In this document: one piece after another, positions 3,401 through 60,258 of the stretch
Layout of the letters: each line of letters starts with the position of its first letter
Position numbering within the stretch: position 1 is the stretch's first letter
Origin: Mugil cephalus
Lineage: Eukaryota > Chordata > Actinopteri > Mugiliformes > Mugilidae
Direction: 5' to 3'
Assembly: GCF_022458985.1 (NCBI RefSeq)
Contig: NC_061786.1
Coordinates: 20,156,974-20,220,973, forward strand
Length of the DNA: 64,000 bases
Translations under genes and position numbers: made by a program
The notes under the pieces: generated by a model
What the model was told of the DNA's origin: nothing
Databases searched by the model: none
What the model saw: the letters and a program-made list of their open reading frames with translations, nothing else

Positions 3401-6400
3401 TCATGAAAAACTGCAGACAGACAGATTTGAGATTTGAGGAAACCTCCAAAAATGCAATATGTCCAAATGAATCAAATAATTGGCCCAGGATGTTAGATTG
3501 TCCCAGGTTATTTACTCCTACTACTTCTGTCACTAGCACAAGTCATTCCTTTTTATGCATGTTGACAATGCCAAATAAAGAGAATGACATTATGCTACAC
3601 AAGTCTCTGCTTTAAGAAAACTGCCAACTCTTCTAAAGGTGGAGCACTTCATTGAAAGAAGCCTAGTTCCTTAGCGTGTTAATAATTTGATTTGCAGCTG
3701 AGCCTTAGCCTGTGTCATTCTAGATGTTGTTGTTGTTTACAGTGACAACACAACATTGTGGATCTTTGGACACTCTGTCTGTTAATCTTTGATATCTTTA
3801 TCTTGTCAGGGATTTGGACGTCGAAGGCCAGATGTGCATCTTGTTTCAAGGACTTGCGCGCTGCACGTCCACTCTGCTTATGTGATACACTCAGGAGTTT
3901 GGAGGTAGATCAGATGACAAACAGACAGAGATTCCTTTTAATTATTAGTGAGGTACCATCATCTGGGGCCAGTCCGCTGGAGAGGAGTAGTCATGTGGTC
4001 CCTTCATCTCCACTTTCACTGGGGAATTAAGGAGAAAACAAACCCGAGACCATTTCAATGAATCTCTCCGGTTTCATAGATAAATATGCAAACATAGTCC
4101 AAAGCTGTTTATGTTCAATAGATGTTTCTCACTTGTAAAAGAAAAGCTGGGCTCCTCTGCTATAATGTCCTCGTCCTCAGCTCCACGAGACAAAAGCTGC
4201 ACGTTCACTATGAACAGATACGGACTGTCTTCCCAGGCTTTGGCCACTGCACCGATATCCTGCACAACGATTAGTCAGAGCCTTGAATATGACGGATTTT
4301 ATTTATTTAGAATATTCCCAGTAAGAAGTAATAAAAGAGTGTCTTACTGGTTTGCCAGGCCAAGTCAGGCTCTGATTGGACGAGTCACTCTAACAAGGGA
4401 AAGACACAAATAAATAAACGTAAAAACCACGACTGAGCTTCACGTTAGCGTGGTCATTATGATCAATCACCAACCTTTGGGCTGGACAGAGGCTGGTAAG
4501 GATTGAAGTCTGTGTAATACGCCTGGAAGAGAAAGGGCACAGTAAAGAAATACATATACACTTAAAAGTATTAGAAGCTGTGAGAATTTTTTTACATTTC
4601 TTCTGCATAAAAATGACTCAAAACATCAACATTCTTTCACATAAGTCCTGATCACAGACAAAGAGAACTCAATCAAACAAAATATTATACTTGTGTATCT
4701 GTTTATTCAGGAAAATGAGCCAATATTACATATCAGAGAGGTACAAAAGTAGGTGCACTTCAAGTTAATTTTGAGGACAAATTAGAGTCCATCTGTTCAG
4801 AAGTTTCTCCAAACAATGTGATGAGACTCAGGAGTTGTCCAGTGTCTCATTGATAGATCTTTAGAGGAGTTGTTGGTTACAACATCATCCCTTAAGAGTT
4901 GGGAATCTACAGATCCACAGTCAGACAGATTGTGAACAAATGGAGGAGAATTAAGGTGATTGTGCGGTCCTCCAGAGACGTCTCAAAGGAACGCAGGATA
5001 ACTTATAAGCAGCTAAAAGTTACCGATCAGCAGTTACTGGAAACCTTCATGTGGAGGCCTAATGTAGATTTTTTTTGTTTCTTGTCGGTGTTGTGCATGT
5101 TTGTGCCTGTAGGTGGCAGTATGTTTAGGCTTGTGCCTATATAGTCACGTAGATTAATAAGTGCAGGTGCACACACTGGAAAAGCCTTGGAGTGTAACGT
5201 TGCAGGTCGAGTATCGTTCTACTAACTTTATGGAAACACGTTATTGTGTCTTGAATAAATCAGCACAGAGAAAGAAGGAAATGTTTGGACATTCTTCTTT
5301 TTTTGTTGCACTTACACCTGCCCTTCATACCAATATGCACAGATAGTGACAAAGGAAGCCACTATACCCGACCTTCATGTGAGGAAAGAGTTGGGGAGGT
5401 TCTGTCCTGAGGAAGCTCCTGTCAATAGACCCTGACGTTTAGTTTAATGTTGCTGTTGCACAAGGAATTGAAAACAAGGGTTTACTTTACTGTTTCACTT
5501 GTTTGACTGGGTTCTCTTTGTCTCTTTGTGGGTCAGTTACTTTTATGCAAACACTTTTAAGCGCCACTGACTGGAGGAAACCAGCGAAATGCTAAAATTA
5601 CAAATAAAGGACTTATGAAAGGCTCCTGATATTAGATACCTGCTACATTAATAAAAACTGAGATTCTACTGATACTAACGCGGCGTTTATGTGCCGTTTG
5701 TTGTAGTGGAAGAGATATCTTCGCCTTTGTCACAGACCTTTGGTGAGAAGAGGGAGGAGCAGTTCTCGAATAACATGTAGCCCTGACTGTGGAAGCCGGT
5801 CCAGCCGTCTCTCAGCATGTGGTCCATCCCAAACATGTTCATGGCTTTGCTGTCCTTCAGAGGGACGCAGAGAGAAGAATCAGTTACAACATGCAACCAG
5901 CTAACCGTCTAAAGTTATGATTATACACTTTACATTTTTAAATACTTTACTCTCTCATTATTATTATGTTAATAAATCGTTTTTAAAGCTCTAGGTACTG
6001 GAGCTCCTACTAACATGTTAAATTATATTTACACTGACTACAAAACAAATATTCACACATCCAGAGGAAAAAGTCAACACTCACTGGTGTGTTAAAGACC
6101 TCGTTATAGCAAACAGACGAGCGCAGGTACCAGCTGATGTTGAAGCCCAGGTTCTTGTCACATGACCCAGGGTCACCCTGGACTGCAGAGAAAGCAAACT
6201 CAAATGTTCGACAGAAATAAGACTTCGCTTTCCATCAGATCACACAGCGATTTGTGCTTTTCAGAGATTTACTTACTCACTTATACCTTAAAAATAAAAA
6301 AAAACAAGATTAATCACGCTGTACGTCCTGAATCATGAGACAATCCAGTTAAAAAACAATTAACATACTTTACGTCTGCAGCATTTTTGTAGATATTTGC

Positions 6401-7861
6401 AGGTATACAGAACTACAGAGCCCCACAGTAAAGGAGACATATCTCTGAAGATCTTTATGGGCTTCGACAGCATCATTAAGTCATATGTTCTGGTGCTGTC
6501 AGAGAATATACACCAAAACAGCATCACAGAACAACCAGCAAACTGAGGCAGACTGTGACGTCACCACACGCTGGACCATAAAGCTGCACCTGAACACACC
6601 ACAAGAGACCGGAGGTTCATGGCTACAGGTGCAAGTTGGAATGCAGATCAACCAGTAAACCAAAAGCCTCACGTCTCTCGTCACTGCAACGCTTGGGGGC
6701 AGAGACTCAACACAGACGAGTTAATGTCATCATGTCGTCTGGTGAAGGCCAAAGTCTTACGTAGAGGTCAGATTACTCACACTTCACGAAGATGGTGGTG
6801 TTGGCGTACAACGTCTTCCGAAACACAGCATGTTGCGCCTGAAAGCCAACAGAGACGATTCAGTCTTAACTTTGTTGGATTCTCTTACGTTATGTTAAAC
6901 TTTGTCGTACAAACCAAACAATGTTGCTGTGCAAATTAGTTAGTTAGTACAGTTGGGGGGGATTTGCATGCATGACAAAGATAATTTGCACTGTTTGTAC
7001 TGAGACTTTTGCACACGTCCAGACTCCATCAAAAGCAGCAAACATAGGCCAAGATCAGCTCACTCTTACATCCTCCTTGGTGGTTTAACCTCCCTTTATT
7101 TACAGTGTTTATTTCAGGAGGATACACAATGATGCATTCATCCAGTGCACACATTTACTTCCTCATAAGAGGAACCAACCAGCTCACGTTACTGTATTTT
7201 CATTCAGGGACCCAACAGCTCAAAACAGACATTTTAGACTTGGAAAGAATTCAAGGATCCACAAGAGGAATTACTTGGTCACAGCAGCTTAGTTGCACAT
7301 AAGAAAAAATTAATAAATAACCTTAACAACCACAAGTAAAAAGAAAATAAACATACACAAATGCACACAAAAAATCCTCTGTTTAGCACTAATGTAATAA
7401 AAAGCTGAATTAAATGCATCTCAACTATAACATGAACCTTTCTAATTACTCATCTGTCTCCTCTTGTGTAACACACCTGCACTACTACCATCACCTTTAC
7501 TTGATGTGGGATAATACAGTTGTCGCCATCTAATAAGAGACGTTATTGTCAGGGAAGCATCATGGCTTTAGATCAGTTTAACATAGATTTAGATTCAGTT
7601 TAAAATATTAGCGCATCTTCTCACACTAACACAATGAGAACTGTCAAAGCGGAAATAGGGGTTGCTAGGGGACAGGTAGCTACCTCGGCTATCGACTGCT
7701 ACGGAAGATTTAGCATGTCGGACCGGGTAATGACGGTAAAGACGCATAACACTGACCGGGTTGATGTCCACGCTCCACACGGAGACCTCCGCCGCAGTAC
7801 CGGGACGGTAAAACAATGCAAAAAGCAACAACCATAGCAGATGCGCCTGAGGATCCGGCAT
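465..7861 (-). CDS. tmem87a: TMEM87A, Golgi seven-helix membrane protein (3' end outside window)
   Basis: Thirteen coding exons read on the minus strand: 7757-7861, 6781-6838, 6085-6182, 5738-5854, 4475-4522, 4348-4389, 4133-4259, 3957-4018, 3227-3410, 3030-3129, 2520-2613, 716-787 and 465-573. All phases join and give about 405 residues. Exon 1 encodes a signal peptide ([18 protein letters not shown]). The lumenal part carries NTTIF and W-Y-L motifs. From exon 9 onward come hydrophobic helices with the family signatures [36 protein letters not shown] and IFISLSQT. Human TMEM87A is about 555 residues as I recall, so the last helix and the acidic tail (about 150 residues) lie left of position 1. 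The family sits in Golgi and plasma membranes and is linked to endosome-to-Golgi traffic and, in some reports, to ion conduction. I chose TMEM87A over TMEM87B because ganc and capn3 follow, as in human. The exon 2520-2613 uses the GTAAGT donor; the nearby GTGTAA breaks the frame. Confidence 0.92.
574..715 (-). other. tmem87a: U12-type AT-AC intron of tmem87a
   Basis: This 142-base intron begins ATATCCTTT, the exact consensus of the minor (U12) AT-AC class. It ends in AC (CGACTAC) before the exon codons ATT TTC ATC. TCCTTAAT, which fits the U12 branch consensus, lies so that its second A (position 585) is 11 bases from the intron end. No GT-AG choice gives the conserved protein: the only nearby GT/AG pair would delete five residues, whereas this choice gives [10 protein letters not shown], matching the family exactly. 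Confidence 0.9.
1544..2081. mobile_element. piggyBac-like MITE, copy A
   Basis: The element is bounded by TTAA on both sides, with inverted ends: TTAACCTTCTGAGACC on the left and GGTCTCAGGAGGTTAA on the right. It lies in the intron between the tmem87a exons at 2520 and 787 and has no coding capacity. A second copy at 45402-45875 shares the inner block ATTATAATAAAGTCACCAA and the 3' block CATGAGGACGCAGGGTCT (CATATGAGG in that copy). TTAA termini are the hallmark of piggyBac-type insertion. Confidence 0.75.
4780..5060 (+). mobile_element. Tc1/mariner-like transposase relic (N-terminal part)
   Basis: Plus-strand translation from 4899 contains [14 protein letters not shown], resembling the helix-turn-helix region of fish Tc1 transposases, followed by a degraded linker. 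No catalytic part follows. It lies in a tmem87a intron. The family call rests on this short motif only. Confidence 0.45.
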
Positions 7862-8105: not shown

Positions 8106-8350
8106 GCCTGATATAATTTCACAATTACACTCACAAATGTTCATTGTAAAAATCATCATTTTCAAATAGACGTTTTGAACATATCGACATCGGTATTGGT
8201 ATATTACCCTTGGTATTACTTGGTATCGGATCGAAAGGTATCGTACATCTCTACGGGTCAGACTCACATCCGCCTCCAGTTCCGGGTCCTTCTCAGGTGT
8301 AGTTCACACTTGCGCCGACAAGAGGGCTCCTTCTTTATTGAACCACATTT

Positions 8351-8525
8351 TCCTCTTGCTTTGAACATATATAGTTGACTATCCATCTGCGAAAAAGAAA
8401 CAGTTCTTTATTATTGCCAAATGGCATATCCACAAATGTCGATACACTCATCAAAAAACAGTCCACTTCATCTTTGAAAATGAAGTCAAGCAACATATTA
8501 GAATTATAAGACATTCCACTAAATG
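8351..8525 (+). mobile_element. LINE (L1-like) 3' coding relic, left copy
   Basis: The stretch CTCTTGCTTTGAACA through CATTCCACTAA is a diverged copy of 14580-14770, same orientation. The right copy still reads as a LINE ORF2 C-terminus; this one has several frame breaks. The two copies lie on either side of the intronless gene but outside its putative target-site duplication. Confidence 0.6.
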
Positions 8526-8689
8526 AACATTATGAGGTGTCTTCCAGTGTTGCTAATGTCCCAGTATCGTACCATATATATATATATATAATACACACAA
8601 TGAAAAAAGTAGAATTAGAACACTAAACATTTCAACAATAGTGCAAATGGTATGTATGTTTGTGCAATTTATTGAAATAAATGCGGGAG

Positions 8690-8905: not shown

Positions 8906-9871
8906 AAAAAAGAAAAAGTTAAATTCAGCAAAAGTTTAATTCCGATTCCAATAACACAACAGAACAAATCTCCAAATAGACCATGATATGTCAGTCGGAT
9001 ATGTGTAGTGGCGTGTGTATGGTGGTAGAATTGTTGTCTTGATGTTAAGGGAGGGTAGATGGTGAATGTTACCTGTGTTTGTTTTTGTTTTGTGAATGAT
9101 GTGCTGTATTCTCATGCCTGTAAGTAACGAAAACTGCATTTTTTTCCATTTGTTTCTGTGCAAAGAAGAACAAGTAATGTAGGAGAATATTTACATTTAA
9201 GAAATTATCCTTCAAAAACATTTTCTTAAGATAAATTAGTGCAGTTTGGGCACATAGCTGTCTTCTGTTTAGTCCTGGGTCTCAGTGTTGTGTTCTGTCC
9301 ACTTCTCTTTATAAAAAAAAAGTGGACAATTAGAGATAGTTGGGAAAGTTTTCAATGACAATTGCAGTTACAAATCCAAATTCATGTTAAAAAGTCAAAG
9401 TAACGAATGTTGATACTGAACTGATACGACAGTAGGTAACAAAAGGGCTAATGTTGGCTAAACTTTATGCTGTATTTATGTCAGGATTAATTAAGTCAAC
9501 ATTTTGGAGTGATTACGAATTGGTGATAGATGTCATACATTACCCAGAGATTCATGTCGTTCATCCATTTCTCAGTCCGTATTATATACATACGGCCTCT
9601 ATTTCTTAAAGTTTTTCTGTCTAACGTCGCCGGCCATTACGACATGCGCTACGACATTATATATATGTGCGTGTGCCTGACTAACGGTAGCAATTTCATC
9701 CGTTTTCCGGTCGACAAATGCTAGCAACGCAAAAATAAACACTGACTACATGTGGGATTTGTATTTACCGCTAGTGGTTCGTTTTCACCAAGATGGGGGG
9801 TGTGGCCTAATTTGCACATGATGTTATCTGCATATGACACCACTGTAACTGTCGGTGTGTGGGCGGGGCTT

Positions 9872-9884
9872 GTTGCTAGGCAAC
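9872..9884. promoter_or_regulatory. X-box (RFX site) upstream of EF-hand/WD40 gene
   Basis: GTTGCTAGGCAAC is a near-palindrome fitting the RFX X-box consensus RYYNYY-N(1-3)-RRNRAC. It lies 180 bases before the ATG at 10064 and just downstream of a GC box (GGGCGGGGC, 9861-9869). X-boxes typify promoters of ciliary genes, which suits an EF-hand/WD40 protein of this kind. It lies upstream of the putative 5' target-site repeat, so it would predate the insertion. Confidence 0.6.
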
Positions 9885-10063
9885 GTAGCTGAGTTTGGCT
9901 ATGATCGAAGCCAAAGTGATCAAAGTCAATATTAGACTTCATAGTCATCTGGCTTTTATTTATTTACGGGATTCTATGAGAACCGTCTCAGACACATCAG
10001 AGGGTAAGAAGGTAGTAGTAAGTACGTGAGTAGTGACATCGTACCAGCAACAAGCGCACAGAA

Positions 10064-13000
10064 ATGGACAAGCACAAGATGGAGGAACAGGTGCCAGAGA
10101 ACACAGACAATGAAGAAATTATGTTTACGTCTGAAGATTTTCCAGAGCTCGTTCGCATATTCAAAGAGGCGGACGTCGATGGAAGTGGAGGGCTGGACAC
10201 AGACGAATTCTGCGAGGCGATGAAGGAGTTGTTCCCCAACGCAAAAGCAGAAGACCTGCTAGCCCTCCATATGAAAATTGACGCAAACTGCGATTACAAC
10301 GTGGACCTCGGTGAGCTTTTGGATTATGTGAGCAATAGTAAGAAGGCAGTAGAAACCTTGGACCACAAGAACCAACTTTTCCCAAGACCTTTTAAGGTCA
10401 TTCCTGTAGATCACTATAAATCGATAGTTAGTTTGATGTACTGTCCTCTCAAGGATGAAGACGTTCCCAATGTTAAAAGAAAAAAAAATGATCCTAAGAA
10501 TGACACGGATGATTCATCAGACCAAACCAGGCCTTACAAAACATACCAGTACATTTCCATCACTTCTGATGGTCTGCTGAAAATCTGGGGTGATGACTTC
10601 AAGAGCTCTCGCACAGTTTCGCTGCAGGAAAAACAGGAAGAGGCACCTCCCTTTTCGCACCAAAAGAAAATAAGTGTCACTGACATGGTGTACATAAAGG
10701 AACTCAATAGGATCGCTGTCTCTACTTCTGAGAGGGAGGTGTTGTTCTGTTTTTACAACCAGTCCCCTCTGGAGTTTGGAACACAGTACTCGTTAATTGA
10801 GGAGGAAAACTTTGTGAACGTCCTGAACTACTGGTCTGACGGCAAAAAGGCAATATTTTCCTTTGGTGATGCGGTTGGCTCTTTCTCTTTTTTCATATCT
10901 AATGATGTGAATTCAGGCCTCTTCTCCCCCAAAGCATTTGAGATGATCTCCTTGAGACCTTACAGATCCGCTTACGTTTCGACCCTTTTGAAGAACCAGA
11001 ACAACAACTTCAACAGCTTTAGGATTTCCCTCTTCATCGACGAGTGCAGTCAGATTAAGTACTTTCAATGCATCGAATCATTTGCGGTCTGCGGTAGGTC
11101 TTCTAAGGTGATGGCCCTCGTATGTTTGTCCTTTCATTCCAAGTCCAGCAAACCCAGAATCTCTAAAAAAGTATTTAGGAGCACTGGACATCATGCGTTT
11201 TTCTCCTGTGCTGAATACTCCCCTTGGTCTGACTTTATGTTGACTGGTGGTACAGATGGATCAATGAGAATTTGGCTTCCCTTCAAGAACACATCCTGTG
11301 CACTTGACTTACCAGGACACAAGACACCCGTCACCCACCTTGTCTACAATACTATTGAAAACATATTTATCAGTCTTTCAGTTGATCAGAACATCCGTGT
11401 GTGGACTGATGGCGACTGGATCTGTAGACAGAGTTTTTTCGTTGAATGTTTGAGCAAAGCTCCGATCACCAGTCTGTATTACAACACACACAACAATGAG
11501 CTGTTTGTGGCGAACTCAAGTATGGCGCGGTGTCTGGGATGTGGCACAGATATTTTTAAAGATGAGCTAACATCCCACTACAAGCCTGTTTCCTCCATGC
11601 TCTACCATGGCATTTTCAAACAGATCATCTCCGTTTGCTGGAACGGCATGGTGACGGTGTGGGACGTCTTCACTGGGAAGGCCGTCATGCAGTTCAAGAT
11701 CACGTCAGATGATTGTGTGGGCCCCATCATCATGGTATTTGATCAACCTCAGCGAAAATTAATAACGGCCGATCAGGATGGCAACATCAGCCAATGGAAT
11801 TTCAACAATGGGATAAATCTCGGGACTATTTCTCTCACCGTCCCGAAGAGGGTAACAAGTATCCTATGCAGAGAAGACAGATTGTACGTCGCAGCAAGGC
11901 ATATGAGCGTCCTCTTTGACTTTGACACGGACAATTGTGACCACAGATTTTGGAAGCATCGCTTACTGAAGGACATTGCCTGTGTGGATGTGCACGAACC
12001 CATTCTGGTTACTGCATCAAGCACGGGAAATGTTGTCATCTGGGATATAGAAACTACTGAGGTTTTGTTTTATCTCACAACCAGTGAAAACCCACGGACA
12101 TGCATGGCATTAAAAGGCGACCAAGGACACGTTACTACAAAGTTTGCCCAAAGAAAGCAAAAGAAAGGGAAGGAGGCATGCATGAAAGAAGAGGAACTTT
12201 CCATTGGCTTTCATTTTATATGTCTGAAGACCAGGGAGGTGACTTGTAATACAGCCACAGTGCTGTCAACAAACGACGGCTATATCTTTGCCTGGTCGAC
12301 TCTCATAAAGGGAGGACTGATAGGAAAGTTTAAGGCAGTGGACAGGGATGATGCCTTTATTACATCTATGGTCACGGATATGAAGGAAGACAATCTAGTG
12401 ACCGGAGATTCTACAGGAAGGGTTTGTTGGTGGAATATTTCCGATTTTGGTTTTAAAACAAGAGACGACAAAGGACCATTTGAAAAAATACAAGGCTGGC
12501 CGGTGTCACTGTGTCCACCTCCTTTGCTGGGCTCCTGGGAGGCTCATCAAAGTAAGTTGGTCAGTGTTGCATGTGACCCTTTGTGTAAAAACATAATTAC
12601 TGCTAGTCTGGACTGCAACGTCAAACTGTGGACAAACTCGGGTACGTATGTGGGCCTTTTTGGAAAAGACACGTGGAGGCAGATTTCTGCACAGTCCCAG
12701 GCTAAGGAGAAAACTGACCAGGAGAAAGACAAAAAACCAGATACACCACCAGCAATCGCTGATGGGCCAAGCTCTGTGCCTCAAGAGTCACCACCGCCAT
12801 CGCCACCGCCACCGCCATCACCATCGCCATCAACATCGCCGTCACCATTGCCATCACCACCGCCGTCACCACCACTCTCACCGTCGCTGATAGACTTACA
12901 ATTTTCGATAAAGACACCTGTAAAGGCGATAATAGATGAGGTTATGTTCCCACAATATGCAGTCTTAAATGTCATAAATGAAAAGTCACAAAATTTTGCA

Positions 13001-13555
13001 TCGGAGCTGCAATTTTGGAAAAAAGAGACTCAGGAGTGGAGAAAAGAGCTGAATCGATCAACCATGAAGATAAAAGAAAGACTACCCGATAAATACCACT
13101 CAGAATCACCACAAAAACAGCAATCAGCTGGTATGCGGAAGTCAGGACTCAAACCAAAACCTGGTAGGGTTCAGCCCGCACCACATCCACCCAGCAAAGT
13201 ACAGCTCCCAGCCATCGCAGCTAAAGGTGAGCTCACACATCTGACCCCACAGTCTGGTGGTAAAAGACTGAAAGACAAAACAGACAAACCGGAATCTAAA
13301 CATGTACACCTGCCACCCATCACTGGTAAGGGTCCTCTGACTCCCCCCACCACAGGCCAAGATGGTACAGCTAAGCAGGGATCTAAACTAGGGTCAAGTA
13401 AAGTACAGCTCCCAGCCATTGCGGCTAAAGGTCAGCTCACGCGTGCGCCTCTGATCCCACCCATCCAAGGCCAGTCTAGCGGTGAAAGACTGAAAGACGG
13501 TGCAAACAAACCGGGATCTAAACGTGTACACCTGCCACCAATCCCTAAGGTCTAG
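10064..13555 (+). CDS. Intronless EF-hand plus WD40-repeat protein (WDR49/WDR64/EFCAB8 type)
   Basis: A single open frame of 1163 codons. EF-hand loop 1 is canonical (residues 37-48, DVDGSGGLDTDE) and loop 2 is a weaker DANCDYNVDLGE at 73-84. At least eight WD40 blade ends follow from about residue 160 to 860, for example SDGLLKIW, GGTDGSMRIW, SVDQNIRVW, WNGMVTVWD, DQDGNISQW, STGNVVIWD, STGRVCWW and LDCNVKLW. Next come a proline/serine tract (about 906-942), a short conserved-looking segment (DLQFSIKTPVKAIIDEVMFP) and a basic, proline-rich tail with two tandem repeats. This layout matches the EF-hand/WD40 family that includes WDR49, WDR64, EFCAB8 and the fly WDY protein, several of them ciliary or testis proteins. 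Every neighbour is heavily split, so an intronless gene this long points to retroposition. The intact frame suggests selection. The exact orthologue is not assigned. Confidence 0.88.
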   Translation: MDKHKMEEQVPENTDNEEIMFTSEDFPELVRIFKEADVDGSGGLDTDEFCEAMKELFPNAKAEDLLALHMKIDANCDYNVDLGELLDYVSNSKKAVETLDHKNQLFPRPFKVIPVDHYKSIVSLMYCPLKDEDVPNVKRKKNDPKNDTDDSSDQTRPYKTYQYISITSDGLLKIWGDDFKSSRTVSLQEKQEEAPPFSHQKKISVTDMVYIKELNRIAVSTSEREVLFCFYNQSPLEFGTQYSLIEEENFVNVLNYWSDGKKAIFSFGDAVGSFSFFISNDVNSGLFSPKAFEMISLRPYRSAYVSTLLKNQNNNFNSFRISLFIDECSQIKYFQCIESFAVCGRSSKVMALVCLSFHSKSSKPRISKKVFRSTGHHAFFSCAEYSPWSDFMLTGGTDGSMRIWLPFKNTSCALDLPGHKTPVTHLVYNTIENIFISLSVDQNIRVWTDGDWICRQSFFVECLSKAPITSLYYNTHNNELFVANSSMARCLGCGTDIFKDELTSHYKPVSSMLYHGIFKQIISVCWNGMVTVWDVFTGKAVMQFKITSDDCVGPIIMVFDQPQRKLITADQDGNISQWNFNNGINLGTISLTVPKRVTSILCREDRLYVAARHMSVLFDFDTDNCDHRFWKHRLLKDIACVDVHEPILVTASSTGNVVIWDIETTEVLFYLTTSENPRTCMALKGDQGHVTTKFAQRKQKKGKEACMKEEELSIGFHFICLKTREVTCNTATVLSTNDGYIFAWSTLIKGGLIGKFKAVDRDDAFITSMVTDMKEDNLVTGDSTGRVCWWNISDFGFKTRDDKGPFEKIQGWPVSLCPPPLLGSWEAHQSKLVSVACDPLCKNIITASLDCNVKLWTNSGTYVGLFGKDTWRQISAQSQAKEKTDQEKDKKPDTPPAIADGPSSVPQESPPPSPPPPPSPSPSTSPSPLPSPPPSPPLSPSLIDLQFSIKTPVKAIIDEVMFPQYAVLNVINEKSQNFASELQFWKKETQEWRKELNRSTMKIKERLPDKYHSESPQKQQSAGMRKSGLKPKPGRVQPAPHPPSKVQLPAIAAKGELTHLTPQSGGKRLKDKTDKPESKHVHLPPITGKGPLTPPTTGQDGTAKQGSKLGSSKVQLPAIAAKGQLTRAPLIPPIQGQSSGERLKDGANKPGSKRVHLPPIPKV
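13192..13552 (+). repeat. In-frame tandem repeat in C-terminal tail of EF-hand/WD40 protein
   Basis: The word AAAGTACAGCTCCCAGCCAT recurs at 13196 and 13400 (204 bases, 68 codons). The second marker TACACCTGCCACC recurs at 13305 and 13527 (222 bases, 74 codons). At protein level two units read SKVQLPAIAAKG...RLKD...KP.SK.VHLPPI. Both spacings are multiples of three, so the repeat keeps the frame. Confidence 0.9.
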
Positions 13556-14440
13556 TCCACCTACAGACACCAACATCCTAAAACCACGTAAAAGCCAGTA
13601 AGGCAAACCAAGTTGTTTGTGCATGTTTTCTCTGTGGGTTTTCCCCGAGTCCTTCGGTTTCTCCCCACATTTTGAAGACTTGCACATGCACTGTATCACA
13701 AAAAAAAAAAAAAAGTCTACTGTCTGTCTTATTTCACCCACCACCAAACTGTTTCTTGTTTATGTTAAAAGTTTCTTCCTTGGTGCTTCATGTCTTGCTT
13801 TACTTCCTGTGATTATGTGATTGGTTTCACCTTGTGTGCTCCTTCCTCTGTCGTCTCACTCCGTCTTTGTCCCTGTCCTTTGTCAATTGGTCCATTCATT
13901 TATCTCAAGGTTCTTTATATGTCTGCACATATGAAATTTGTTTCTCAGTGCCAGGAGCATAATATACACGAGGAATATAAAAACATAGACATACAGTGCA
14001 GAAGGTTAAACTGTTTTCTTTCTCAAGGAACACATTGACGAGACACAGTTGCATTGGTAACCATCATTCAAACTTGTTGTCGTTGGTTGTGTCCATGTTT
14101 CTTAAAAAAATACTTCATCACAAAACTGCAAAACTGTCCTCTTATTTAATACAATATTCACAGCCTGTACAATAGACATAGCTTGTTCCCTATAATTGTG
14201 TCAATGTTACACTTTTTGCTATTTATACGTCTGCTTAAATGTGTAATTTCTTATTTATGTACCTGTACTATATGCAGTCATAACATGGTTGCATCTAATC
14301 TCATCAAAAAAAAAACAAAACAAAAAAAAAGAGGGTAATGAATAATTGAATGCCAAGGATTTTATGTCAATGCACTGATAAAATATTACTATTACTTTAT
14401 TAAAAATACCATAAAGCTGTTTATCAGCCACTATTTATTA

Positions 14441-14915
14441 GTGAAGAAGTATACGAGGAGGAGAAAGAACAGATGCTCTTTCTATGAAGGACACCCTGTA
14501 GATGTTATTTTAGTTTTGACCTTTCTCGACCAAACTATGGGAAAATATTTGCAACTTGATTTCTATTTTCTACATTGTTCCTCTTGCTTTGAACACATAC
14601 TCTTTGGCTTCACTGACTATCCATCTGTGAAAAAGAAAGAAAGAAGAAATATCATTAATCTTATTATACATTTAGCCAAATGGCGTATCCATAAATGTCA
14701 ATACACTAATCAAAAAACACTCATCTCCACCTTAGAAAATGAGGTCAAGCAATATTTTAAAGGTATTAGACATTCCACTAATATGAAAGTCACTTTGGTG
14801 TATTTGTATATTTGTATATATTCTGTAATATTGTATCTGTGATGTGTGTGGCCCCCTGGCGGTTGTCATTGCACTGCACTGGTTTGTATTTCCTAATAAA
14901 GTTTATTTAAAAAAG
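14441..14915 (+). mobile_element. LINE (L1-like) ORF2 C-terminal relic with 3' end
   Basis: An open stretch of 133 codons (14441-14842) ends in a pattern typical of L1-type ORF2 C-termini (IINLIIHLAKWRIHKCQYTN, then ENEVKQYFKGIRHSTNMK). A polyadenylation signal AATAAA (14895-14900) and a short A run follow. It lies between the EF-hand/WD40 gene and ganc and is related to 8351-8525. Confidence 0.65.
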
Positions 14916-39450: not shown

Positions 39451-51352
<11,902 letters not shown>

Positions 51353-55368: not shown

Positions 55369-58300
55369 TCAGTTTATCGGGTTCAGTTCCCGCACTTTAT
55401 TCCTCAGGTGCCTCTTACGCATCCTGATAATCCACTGAATAGTGAGTTTGGCAAAATTAGCAGCTTTGAACAGGGCCATAAAGACGCCGCAGAGGATGGC
55501 CACAGAGCTCCAGGGGTTTGCAGTCACTATCTGTTTGAAAAAAAAAAAGGAGGAATAAATCCCGTTAAACGCTGGTGTTTAGAATGGAAAGTGGTAAAAA
55601 AAAGTACTCACCAGTCGGATTTCTTGCATGTAAGGATCTCGCCATTCGAACACGGCGAAGAAGAGCTGGTTGGTTTTCTCTATTCCAGGTCTTTTATCGT
55701 TGAATTTCACTACAGCGGACTAGAGGATCCAACACAAATCATGGAATTAAAGCTTTAAGAGTCACCACACACACTCACTGGCCACTTTATCACCAACACA
55801 AATAGCTATTAGCCAATCACACGGCTGCAATTCAATGCATTTAGGCGTTGACGGCTACTTCCAGCAGGATAATGCACCATGTCACAAAGCTCATATCATC
55901 TCAAACTGGTTTCTGGAACATGACGATGAGTTCACTGTACTCCAATGGCCTCCACAGTCACCACATCTCAATCCAATATTTCACCTTTGGGATGTGGTGG
56001 AACGGGAGATTCACATCGTAGATGTGCAGCCAACAAATCTGCAGCAACTGATGTTATCATGTCAATATGGACCAAAATCTCTGAGGAATGTTTCCAAACA
56101 CCTTGTTTAAAATAAGTATATCATGAAGAATTCAGACTGTTCTGAAGGCAAAAGGGTGGCCAGTGAGTGTATATTTGAGCCTGTGTACGCTGGCTGAGAC
56201 ATTGATACCTCTTGTCGAAACTCGACAGCTTCGTTGATCTTCCCAGACGTCCTCACCAGAGACATCTTGACCCAGGTTCTGAATCCTCCGGAGAAGGTCC
56301 ACATGGAGTAATTCCTCTCACAGTCCTTCATGAATTCTGATTTATTTGCACTGGAGATCCAGAAAATCACACATGTTTTTAAACAGAGCCAAAAACCACA
56401 CAATGGTTTGACTTTTAAAAGACAAATACAGCAGCGATCAGTACGAGCTGTTTGCACGTACCTCTCGATCAAGTCGCTAAACTTGGCAAAAAGCATGTAA
56501 GTGATGTCGCTGAAATCCTCCTCAGTCTCGTTTTGACTGAACTGCATGAAGATCAGCTCTTTGTTCCTGACGTCAGACGGGCCTCGGACCACCAGAGCAT
56601 GTTTCTGCGGCACACAAACAGAGACTATGATCTGTCTTTTTTTTATATATATATATATATATATATGGAGCGGTATAAGGTTAGTGGTATTATTACAGAT
56701 TTTACCTGTGTTTGATTTATGAACGGCCCAAAGTACGTCACGTTGACGATCTCACAGTCGCTCTCCTGAGGCTTGCCGGGGTCCACTAATGGAGGGATGT
56801 AGTCGTGGTAGTGATGCCTGCAGCTGAGTAGCCGAGCGTTGCCGGGATACAGAGCGATACCTGCTCAAAGGAGGAACAATAATGGATGACAACGTTTGAC
56901 CAACCACTTGTCACAAAGATCAATATCAGCTCAGTCTGGGTGCACAGGACAATAAATACTCATTACATAACACAGCAAACTTAACACATTATTCCTGCTT
57001 TTAAAATGATCTAATTAGCAGTAATTTGCATGTTCCTGCACCTTGCTCCAGCTGTTGTTAATGTAAACCCCACACGGTTAATTATTTTCAAAATGACTTT
57101 GTATTTATTCAGCCGTAACTATTTCACTGTGAGGGAAATTAGATTGTAACTTAAAATGAGATGCACCAAACCAAAATCAAAGTACACTACACTGACTGTG
57201 GTGTGTCTGGACCAAAAAGTTGCACCTGAACACACCACAAAGACCAATAGCCAATGACCAGCTGGCACATTACACCGTAGTTCTACGCCCACGTGAGACG
57301 AAATAACTCCTCATACCAGCAGGGGTCAGTAGTCTGTGTCTGTTATTCAAAACGATGGAGGCTAGGAAGCTACAAGAAAATCTAGGAAGTTTTAGAGAGT
57401 TGACCTGTCCTGAATCACGCTGATAAGTTGGTAGATATGTTATTAATGCTAGATGAACATGTGGGAGCAAACTAAGAGTTCAGACGAAATGAAGATGAAA
57501 ACATCTGGTCAGAAGATGAAGAACTTATCACAACAATATCTCTTACCAACAATCTTATCTCATTAAAGACGCTCAGGGCTGTAATTAGTGTAATACGTGT
57601 AATAAGCTCAACTTTCAGAGCTAAAAGTCCATTTTTGTCCATTGCTTCAAGCTTCAGCTTTTTGTAACTGTGCAGAACCTCACCTCTTCTTCTCCGCTGC
57701 AGATCTTTGGCTGTTTTAATTCATTTATCGCTATAAGCCTTTGTTTGTGTTAACTGTGGCGTCTAGTTTCCGTGTAAAGCTTGGTTTACACTCCTGCAAC
57801 CGGTCCATGCAGAACCTTTACCACAGGCCTTGAGCACCGGTGTGTCTGCATTGTTTCGCAATTACAACCACTAAATCATTAGTCAGCTGCGTTGAGTTTG
57901 CTCACGCTGGAGTTGAAGTTAAGAAATGCTGATCAACAATAACTTTAACTGAAATCACAGAAGACAGAGAAGACGTTCGTAGGAGGATTTTCTGTTGTTG
58001 TCTGTGAACAAGGAAATACATTTCGGACCAGTCACAGTTGTGCAGTTGGAGTGCAGCATCCACAGCTACTTACGTCGTACCGACGCCGTAGAAGTGACGT
58101 GCAACTATAAAAAAAACCCCAAAATGACCCTTACCAGGGGGTGAAAACGAGTCCACTTCCTTGTAGGTAACGGACATGACCGGGTGGTTGAGCTTCTCCA
58201 AGAACTCCGAGATGGTTTGGTAGGCCAGGAACACCGCCACCGCCGTCAGCAGCAGGTAGATGAAGATGAGCACCACCGTGAAGACGTTTTTCAGACATGC

Positions 58301-60258
58301 TTTACTGAATCTCATGGGCGGACTGTTCCCCCTGAATTCATCCTCTGCAGCGGAAAATAAGAAATATGAGGGGAAACGCCTCAAACTGCAGCTGAGACAA
58401 GAACGAACTGAATATACATGTACATGTTTACATTAACATGACGCTAAAACCCTATAAACTATACCGCAGCTAGCAGCTTGTTAAAGCTGAGTCCAGTTAA
58501 AAAATGTATGAGGTAGTGATTCAGTGACACGCTTCGGTTAAGACTCACTGTCGTACCTTGTGAGATGCTGTCATTGGGCTCTTTGGGCTCCAGCTCTTCA
58601 GTGACATCGTCAAAGAAGTTTGGAGACTGCATGATACCTTCATCATCGTCTTCGTCGTCATTAAACTGTGAAGAAAACGTTTATTACATATGAACAGGAA
58701 TCAATGAATGAATGAAAAAGACAAGAACTATTTGAAGCAACCTGCAAACTGACATAAATTATCTTCAAATTTAAGAAGAACATGACTGCAAAGACATTTT
58801 AACTCATTTATTTCAGTGACAGTAAATAATAGAAACATCGCGCAGACTCTCTTATCTGGTTTCCGCTAAATTAGTTTCACTACTGGACATTTGTTTGTCC
58901 TCAAAAGTGTCAGCAGTTCTTCAGAGACTGAGGTTATTTGCCGCGTCAACAAGCAATAAAAATGAAAGAAAAAGATACAAACGAGCTACAAAGACATTTC
59001 TGACAGTAAGTCCTGCAGTCACTTTGTCCAAGCACAGCTACAAACAGATATGATAACAACAGCACAGACAGCCAGCAACTACAGCTATGCAATACACAAC
59101 AGCACCACAACTACCAGCTTCCCCAAACAAGTTCACCAGCTGCATGTTTGTGACAGCTTTGGGTCTGGTTGCAGCAATGAAAAATGCAGAATAAACACCA
59201 GATAATGACAAAAAAATGCAGAAAACTGTTGGAGGAAAACCTGCAAAGTGAAATAAAACAACCATTAGGAGTCAAATGTCTGCAAAGAAATTTAAACTTA
59301 TTGATGGTTTATAACAGAAACACCTGACACAACCACAAATGACAACCAGTGGTGTGAGTGTTTCTAAGTGTGACTGCAGCTACAAATAGATGTGAAACAA
59401 CCTGTACGTCACAAAACAGATGCAACAACTACAGCTATGCAACAAGGTTCTATCATAAATACCTCACAGCACCACAAACTTACTCCAAACTAGTTCACCA
59501 ACTAGACATTTGTGACACCTTTAAGTGTATAAAACTGCAAAATGAACAGTTGGAGGGAAACCTACAAAGTGAAATAAAACAACCACAAAGAGAAACTGCT
59601 TTCTATGGGTCAAGATGCATAAAAGAAATGTTATAAACAGATACACGGAGACATAAAATGAGGACAACAAGGTGTAAAATGTCTGCAAGAACTTATTAAT
59701 GGTTTATAACAGAAACACCTGACAGCACCAAAATGACAACAGGACCTTTACGAGTATTTCAAAGTATGACTGCAACTCCAAAGAGATGTGATAAAAACCT
59801 ATAAGCCACAAACTGCAAAATAAACAACAAACAGGGACAGAGGCAGAAAACTGTTGGGGGGGAAACATAGAAAGTGACACAAACAACCACTAAGAGGCAA
59901 CACTAGGAGCCAAATGACCGCAGAGACATTTAAACTAGTTCTATAATTGATGATAAACAACTATAAACTACTGACAGCGCCACTATTGTCTGGTTATGCT
60001 TCAACAAGCTCCATTTTACAGCTGACACTAGCAGGAAGGACACATGTATTATTCACTGCTGTCCTCAACTGTCCAGTCACATGATGCCAACTGAACCGGA
60101 CACTTTGCGGACCCTCCACTCGGCGAGGAAGTCCCCAGACTGCTGCCCTCGCATTTTCTTTTAAACAAACATTCAAGATAACACACACCGACACACAAAC
60201 ACGAAGCAACTTGTTACTTTACCTCTTGGTATGACCGAGAGCTTTCCTTTCTCCGCAT
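55369..60258 (-). CDS. pacc1: Proton-activated chloride channel PACC1 (TMEM206)
   Basis: Eight coding exons, minus strand: 60223-60258, 58557-58665, 58135-58344, 56706-56860, 56462-56604, 56209-56350, 55612-55719, 55369-55530. They total 354 residues (human about 350). The start MRRKESSRSYQE aligns with the human N-terminus. An acidic cytosolic segment (FNDDEDDDEG) follows. TM1 lies at about 69-90 (VFTVVLIFIYLLLTAVAVFL). The extracellular domain has IALYPG, cysteines, NQT and NET sequons, and SGGFRTWVKMSLV. TM2 lies at about 309-325 (VAILCGVFMALFKAANFA), followed by a basic tail (RMRKRHLR). It forms trimeric anion channels opened by extracellular acid, in plasma membrane and endosomes. All exon phases join. 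Human PACC1 lies beside NENF head to head, as here. A 390-base Tc1 derivative occupies one intron. Confidence 0.95.
55781..56170 (+). mobile_element. Short Tc1-like element with transposase C-terminal remnant
   Basis: Perfect 15-base inverted ends: ACACTCACTGGCCAC (55781-55795) and GTGGCCAGTGAGTGT (56156-56170). A 91-codon open stretch (55835-56110) keeps the transposase words QQDNAPCHKA and HLWDVVERE. The expected PDLNPIEHLW reads PHLNPIFHLW, so the final catalytic Glu is Phe. It is an internally deleted, inactive copy in a pacc1 intron. Confidence 0.85.
56642..56667. repeat. (TA)n microsatellite in pacc1 intron
   Basis: About 12 TA units directly 3' of a T run, between exons 56462-56604 and 56706-56860. 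Confidence 0.9.
59035..59930. repeat. pacc1: Three diverged ~310-320-base tandem units in pacc1 intron
   Basis: The marker ACCTGCAAAGTGAAATAAAA starts at about 59240, recurs as ACCTACAAAGTGAAATAAAA at about 59560, and as ACATAGAAAGTGACACAAAC at about 59865. CAACTACAGCTATGCAA recurs near 59076 and 59427, and TAACAGAAACACCTGACA near 59313 and 59708. The rest of the 1.6-kb intron (58666-60222) is AT-rich with nothing else recognised. Confidence 0.75.

Follow-up and report, generated by a model that had tools for sequence, protein, structure and literature searches.

The 64,000-nucleotide stretch of Mugil cephalus DNA analyzed here (contig NC_061786.1; C17:20156974-20220973, hereafter the window) contains a large single-exon gene for a protein with EF-hand and WD40 domains, and our results show that this gene is, among the matches found, the only intact copy of a dispersed intronless family sharing a 5' region. 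A preliminary description of this DNA had treated the gene as a lone insertion, but at least 11 other intronless copies are present in the same genome, comprising three broken linear copies and eight loci organized as inverted repeats. The interpretation that we favor, at about even chances, is that of a dispersed family with a promoter-like region, whose intact copy lies in the window and whose inverted-repeat loci would resemble the hairpin RNA (hpRNA) loci known from Drosophila. One genome seems to combine the gene with broken copies of it and with eight derivatives in inverted-repeat form, seven of which have kept the promoter-like region; therefore, the birth and spread of hairpin loci would be directly testable. 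The family may allow RNA-silencing conflict to be tested in a vertebrate, and no report of vertebrate or fish hpRNA was found among the matches listed in the open-licence literature.

The intact gene and its dispersed copies

The gene is an unbroken open reading frame (ORF) of 1163 amino acids on the plus strand at 10064-13555 (C17:20167037-20170525), and the remaining two plus-strand frames over the same interval contain 59 and 80 stops. The preliminary view of it as a large, intact member of the WDR49/WDR64 group with a single exon and with EF-hand and WD40 domains was borne out, with matches for both domains above the Pfam cut-offs and two EF-hand loops, starting at residues 37 and 73, that are both canonical by eye. 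In a PDB search with the whole protein, WDR64 from the sperm doublet scored best (E 3.7e-25), aligning in three collinear stretches (residues 43-107, weak alone, 312-587 and 733-875), which confirms the WDR49/WDR64-type order of an EF-hand region followed by WD40 repeats. The window gene differs from WDR64 and WDR49 in being intronless and in its proline-rich LP[AP]I repeat tail, located at the C-terminus (13153-13560, plus strand, with units at 13193/13397 and 13250/13472) and expanded into arrays at other loci. WDR64 is described as located on the sperm doublet at the CCDC96/113 complex (PMC11779644), and the 1163-amino-acid protein is a candidate WDR49/WDR64-type scaffold of the axoneme that would bind calcium. 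Structure prediction by AlphaFold on the single sequence gave no confident fold, with a mean predicted local distance difference test (pLDDT) score of 31, and the codon-usage score of the ORF was uninformative. No relative of the gene was found in viral contigs, Rfam gave no match and NCBIfam gave a single match far under its cut-off. A term search of the main text of a sea bass paper on single-exon genes (PMC8207432) found no mention of WD repeats.

The genome search covered 635 Mb in 24 contigs, and loci are named here by their contig, C17 being that of the window. The whole protein gave 69 matches, with 40 of 5324 candidates scored, and residues 1-884 alone gave 44 matches, with all 35 candidates scored; no further intact copy was found among the latter. 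Twelve loci were compared: the window, the linear copies C10a, C10b and C7 (each of them partial), and the inverted-repeat loci C1a, C1b, C2, C5, C8, C16, C18 and C20. The linear copies are broken by insertions and deletions whose length is not a multiple of three (24 of 32 in C10a, 17 of 21 in C10b and 18 of 22 in C7). A 3' non-coding segment (13574-14117, plus strand) is common to C10a, where it extends to 14117, and to C2, C16, C20 and C1a, where it extends to 13961-14017. Two broken linear copies on C10, at 23.75 and 23.83 Mb, lie in opposite orientation 80 kb apart with 96.9% identity over 1459 aligned bases, and this pair represents a recent inverted duplication. An extra fragment at C10:6506083-6507636 matches residues 592-697 at 40% and residues 629-674 at 74%.

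The ratio of non-synonymous to synonymous change (dN/dS) between the window gene and C10a, C10b and C7 is 0.59, 0.52 and 0.76, respectively, values that are about as expected from a comparison of one constrained and one decaying copy. A neutral window branch would be expected to have accumulated ~7-8 stops, and none is seen. Changes private to the window relative to C10a and C10b, a count in which the C10 stem is included, amount to 51, 52 and 71 at the three codon positions. With the zebrafish-carp silent rate as given in PMC3091775, the synonymous divergence (dS) of 0.21-0.25 would correspond to a rough age on the order of 25-30 million years.

The 5' non-coding segment (9668-10063, plus strand), which is common in whole or in part to seven of the eight inverted-repeat loci, is a putative promoter and 5' leader. 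It contains a palindromic consensus match to the RFX X-box, GTTGCTAGGCAAC at 9872-9884, with a GC box beside it (9861-9866, plus strand), and CpG is undepleted at 9401-9800. By the X-box consensus sequences given in PMC2375033, GTTGCTAGGCAAC is the only site in the 64 kb that fits GYTRYYN1-3RRHRAC on both strands, and no other site there matches the least degenerate consensus, RTNRCCN1-3RGYAAC. Simple shuffles yield ~1.1-1.5 such places per 64 kb, and we infer that an X-box within 200 bases of the start codon would be an event of about 0.4-0.5%. The loosest consensus is satisfied in five of the seven other copies that have the 5' segment. Over eight copies, the mean pairwise identity of the blocks measured ranges from 0.43 to 0.90, and the highest value, 0.90, is shared by the block with the X-box (9870-9899) and the block at 9930-9959.

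Inverted-repeat loci as possible hairpin units

The eight inverted-repeat loci share a derived layout, which consists of a 5' segment, a sense N-terminal scrap, an inverted C-terminal array, an array in the opposite sense and a 3' segment. The inverted array followed by the opposite-sense array is present in all eight loci, the 5' segment in all except C18, the scrap in six (not C2 or C16), and the 3' segment was found in four (C2, C16, C20 and C1a). The N-terminal part that left these scraps is located at 10064-10943 (plus strand), and the sense part stops at 10943 in C5 and C20. Another segment (12327-12577, plus strand) is found inverted, whole or in part, at five of the eight loci (not C2, C1a or C1b). 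A breakpoint at residue 755 (12327) is common to C5, C8, C18 and C20; in the bases beyond it, the first three agree with one another and C20 differs. For C5 and C8, the edge at 12327 in the layout map is that of a query piece, and the shared breakpoint rests on separate alignments. The longest array per locus measures 1.7-7 kb, and the arrays of C5, C8, C20 and C1b switch direction more than once.

The longest inverted pair per locus measures 0.6-1.8 kb. Among the pairs listed, the two members are 66-86% identical and exact matches extend over at least 40-80 bases; no such pair is present in the three linear copies. Folding was predicted over 1400 bases about a chosen apex, with one chosen turn in multi-turn loci and five shuffles each, and the resulting energies ranged from -593 to -951 kcal/mol, compared with -409 to -542 for the shuffle means, and lay beyond all five shuffles in each of the eight loci. 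C1a gave the weakest folding (-593 against a shuffle mean of -542) and is the only locus in which arm-bridging pairs did not exceed those of all shuffles; in C1b, the folded turn is not the one nearest the promoter-like segment. Two controls from the window both had ordinary folding energies compared with their shuffles. The control on the window repeat tail was ordinary in energy, yet its centre-bridging pairs (165) outnumbered those of its five shuffles. All eight loci have a long inverted repeat whose predicted folding is more stable than that of its shuffles, in C1a only modestly, and which could form a hairpin if a single transcript spanned it.

One criterion for an hpRNA locus is a match to its coding target, and each of the eight loci contains between 15 and 53 21-mers, summed over both strands, that match the window transcript (9901-14305) exactly. 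Another is that the arms be near-perfect, and here exact inverted matches of at least 40-80 bases stand beside mean arm identities of 69-86% by locus. In its manner of working, the hpRNA network of flies is the nearest known system. Like the loci described in Drosophila (Nmy/Tmy versus Dox; hp-ODox; PMC10317233, PMC10292708), those found here are inverted repeats related to a distant coding gene. The present loci differ in that most of them share a promoter-like segment and a founder layout, that they occur in a teleost, and that their arms have diverged. In flies, silencing of testis genes by hpRNA loci has been described, and the origin of such loci is presented as an ongoing conundrum in which promoter acquisition may be an issue (PMC10317233).

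In the mechanism that we propose, RFX acting through the gene's own X-box would drive expression in sperm or ciliated cells. Introns would have been lost from the founder long ago via an RNA copy, one copy would then have been rearranged into a hairpin unit, and this unit would have spread with the same promoter. Transcription of hairpin units from that promoter could yield long double-stranded RNA that corresponds to the C-terminal portion of the intact gene, and RNA interference triggered by it could lower expression of that gene, in the manner of the Drosophila hpRNA loci. Silencing of the intact gene by hairpin units, which is suggested by analogy, would be the least certain of these steps. 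A bolder version, in which eight or more autonomous hairpin loci would have spread through the genome with the RFX promoter of their own target and would hold down a selfish or over-active sperm-axoneme gene, seems unlikely to us. If true, silencer and target would be turned on in the same cells, and the hpRNA conflict system of Drosophila would have its counterpart in a vertebrate.

Several observations weigh against a family of hairpin loci derived from a functional gene. The best match of a 150-base window in the other arm of its own locus averages 69-86% by locus, and of 182 windows another locus gave the better match in 130 and the own arm in 46, with a tie in 6, a comparison that is biased by the larger amount of sequence that other loci offer. 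C1a is the exception, with the own arm better in 13 of 16 windows; local homogenization of own arms is not seen generally, except perhaps in this locus. The X-box consensus fails in two of the seven other copies that have the 5' segment, and an X-box by itself is described as no predictor of RFX control (PMC2375033). Changes private to the window relative to C10a and C7 have no third-position excess (19, 13 and 15), and therefore amino-acid constraint looks weak. Finally, direct repeats at both ends of the unit were found in only three of the eight loci (C1b, C5 and, partially, C16).

Left of the 5' segment, C16, C5, C8 and C1b continue together for ~145 bases to a sharp end, and C2, C20 and C1a share more sequence leftward still, which corresponds to the 3' tail of the unit. 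The ~145-base stretch opens with a sequence of roughly 110 bases, here called J. A second copy in the same orientation is present at the 3' end in C1b and C5 and, incompletely, in C16; a 38-base piece of J lies downstream of C10a, and no copy of J was detected in the window. No target-site duplication could be settled by eye at the unit ends. Small long terminal repeat (LTR)-like or gene-carrying mobile elements form a class with which such units can be compared, since they too are dispersed and the terminal direct repeats of ~110 bases in three of the eight loci recall them. The present family differs from that class in that no target-site duplication has been established and no transposition gene was seen in the window ORF, to which this check applied, among the best 25 of its 33 Pfam matches.

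It is possible, at chances that we put somewhat below even, that the whole family reflects an inert amplification, in which the gene was taken to many chromosomes inside a unit with terminal repeats that was mobile or copied segmentally, its C-terminal minisatellite then expanded and inverted by replication errors, and the resulting palindromes have no RNA role. We keep this explanation as a near-equal rival because the arms have diverged and local homogenization is generally lacking, the arms being mostly no closer to each other than to other loci. The dispersal of the copies, the sharp left end in four loci and the direct repeat at both ends in three, one of them partial, are in line with it, as is the longest stop-free run of only 150-263 amino acids in seven of the eight loci, flanks included. 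It fits less well with the inverted-then-opposite order, which is kept in all eight loci, and with the position of the X-box block among the most conserved non-coding parts. The least probable of the explanations considered is that the arrays encode repetitive LP(A/P)I-type proteins and form a secondary gene family rather than hairpins. Repeat coding is indeed present in the window gene, and stop-free runs reach 263 amino acids, or 396 in C18, where they possibly include flank. However, such runs are short against arrays of 1.7-7 kb, and both orientations stand head-on in one unit.

Probable intron loss and the proposed insertion edges

The gene had been explained as a single retrocopy inserted between 9999 and 14330, with AGAGGGTAA as target-site repeat on its left (9999-10007, plus strand) and right (14330-14338, plus strand) and with an A-rich tract (14306-14330, plus strand) as poly(A) tail. 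Both copies of AGAGGGTAA are real and the right one adjoins the A-rich tract; together with an ORF without introns and the existence of a multi-exon relative, they speak for this account, which we nevertheless regard as very unlikely. Homology with other copies starts at ~9668 in the longest case, which places the start of the shared unit 331 bases or more to the left of 9999 and brings the X-box/GC-box region into it. This homology crosses 9999 in six of the seven loci that have the 5' segment, the exception being C2, where it stops at 9986, and therefore 9999 is not an edge. The presence of the 5' segment in other copies points the same way, since a promoterless retrocopy would lack the shared X-box/GC-box region. 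Later DNA copies of this locus could carry flanking sequence along, yet the terminal sequence that adjoins it in those copies was not found in the window.

The repeat pair itself fared no better. A third copy of AGAGGGTAA lies within the ORF at 11847, so that the 64 kb contain three copies where 0.45 would be expected. As a control, 57 A-runs of at least 8 bases on both strands, taken beyond the first 5.2 kb of each strand, were examined at the same distance with a 600-base search zone; at least nine matching bases were found in 2 of the 57 (the window case and one other) and at least eight in 5. The probability of such a match by chance, previously estimated at ~0.5%, is therefore nearer 2-4%. 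With its left copy inside a segment shared by other copies, its third copy in the ORF and the outcome of this control, the pair at 9999 and 14330 was rejected as target-site repeats. The A-rich tract is interrupted, and no AATAAA is present from the stop codon to the tract. The sole AATAAA up to 15100, at 14895, was rejected as a clear signal of this gene; it lies beside a repeat remnant (14572-14787) that has another copy at 8345-8527.

The search for a multi-exon parent gave a divided answer. A multi-exon relative is located at C16:17679401-17686200, where collinear pieces (residues 382-435, 513-575, 578-610, 647-678, 754-802 and 819-875) with 25-41% identity to the window protein are parted by intron-like gaps, with the usual splice signals at the few places inspected. 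The existence of a relative with introns where the ORF has none was thus confirmed, but its identity of 25-41% is not that of a recent parent, and no closer multi-exon parent was found among the 35 candidates, all scored, for residues 1-884. Some of its pieces are weak alone and, as WD40 repeats, align elsewhere in the query too; one piece aligns with the equivalent part of WDR64, although 13 further distinct sequences, namely designed propellers and WD40 proteins of other kinds, score higher. This comparison suggests that the intronless state is derived, and an RNA-copied ancestor of the gene is plausible because the relative has introns where the ORF has none. One exon match of the relative starts at about residue 754, adjoining the residue-755 breakpoint of four inverted-repeat loci. 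Intact fish retrogenes (PMC3136929, PMC3091775) resemble the window gene as single-exon copies of a multi-exon gene type, and most fish retrocopies are reported to be intact, with 151 of 195 in zebrafish (PMC3136929). The window gene differs from them in being multi-copy, in having a 5' region common to the copies and in that no recent multi-exon parent was found.

Neighboring genes and repeats

A position of the gene between TMEM87A and a GH31 gene was confirmed. Upstream, on the minus strand, lies TMEM87A (Pfam GOLD and GOST_TM; PDB TMEM87A, E 4.4e-31), with a start that resembles a signal peptide by eye near 7861, and downstream of the ORF, on the plus strand, lies a GH31 glucosidase gene, with a calpain gene beyond it.

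The repeat remnants at 8345-8527 and 14572-14787 flank the gene on the same strand and share 72.7% identity (E 4e-31; 0 of 500 shuffles). They may resemble the C-terminus of a long interspersed nuclear element (LINE), a likeness that Pfam and PDB did not confirm. Fragments at 55751-56107 and 4896-5141, the latter inside the TMEM87A gene span, resemble a Tc1-type transposase in their motifs, and an exon on the minus strand at 58073-58432 resembles PACC1/TMEM206. A minisatellite of TATCGTATTG at 40834-41158 shows an extreme CpG excess.

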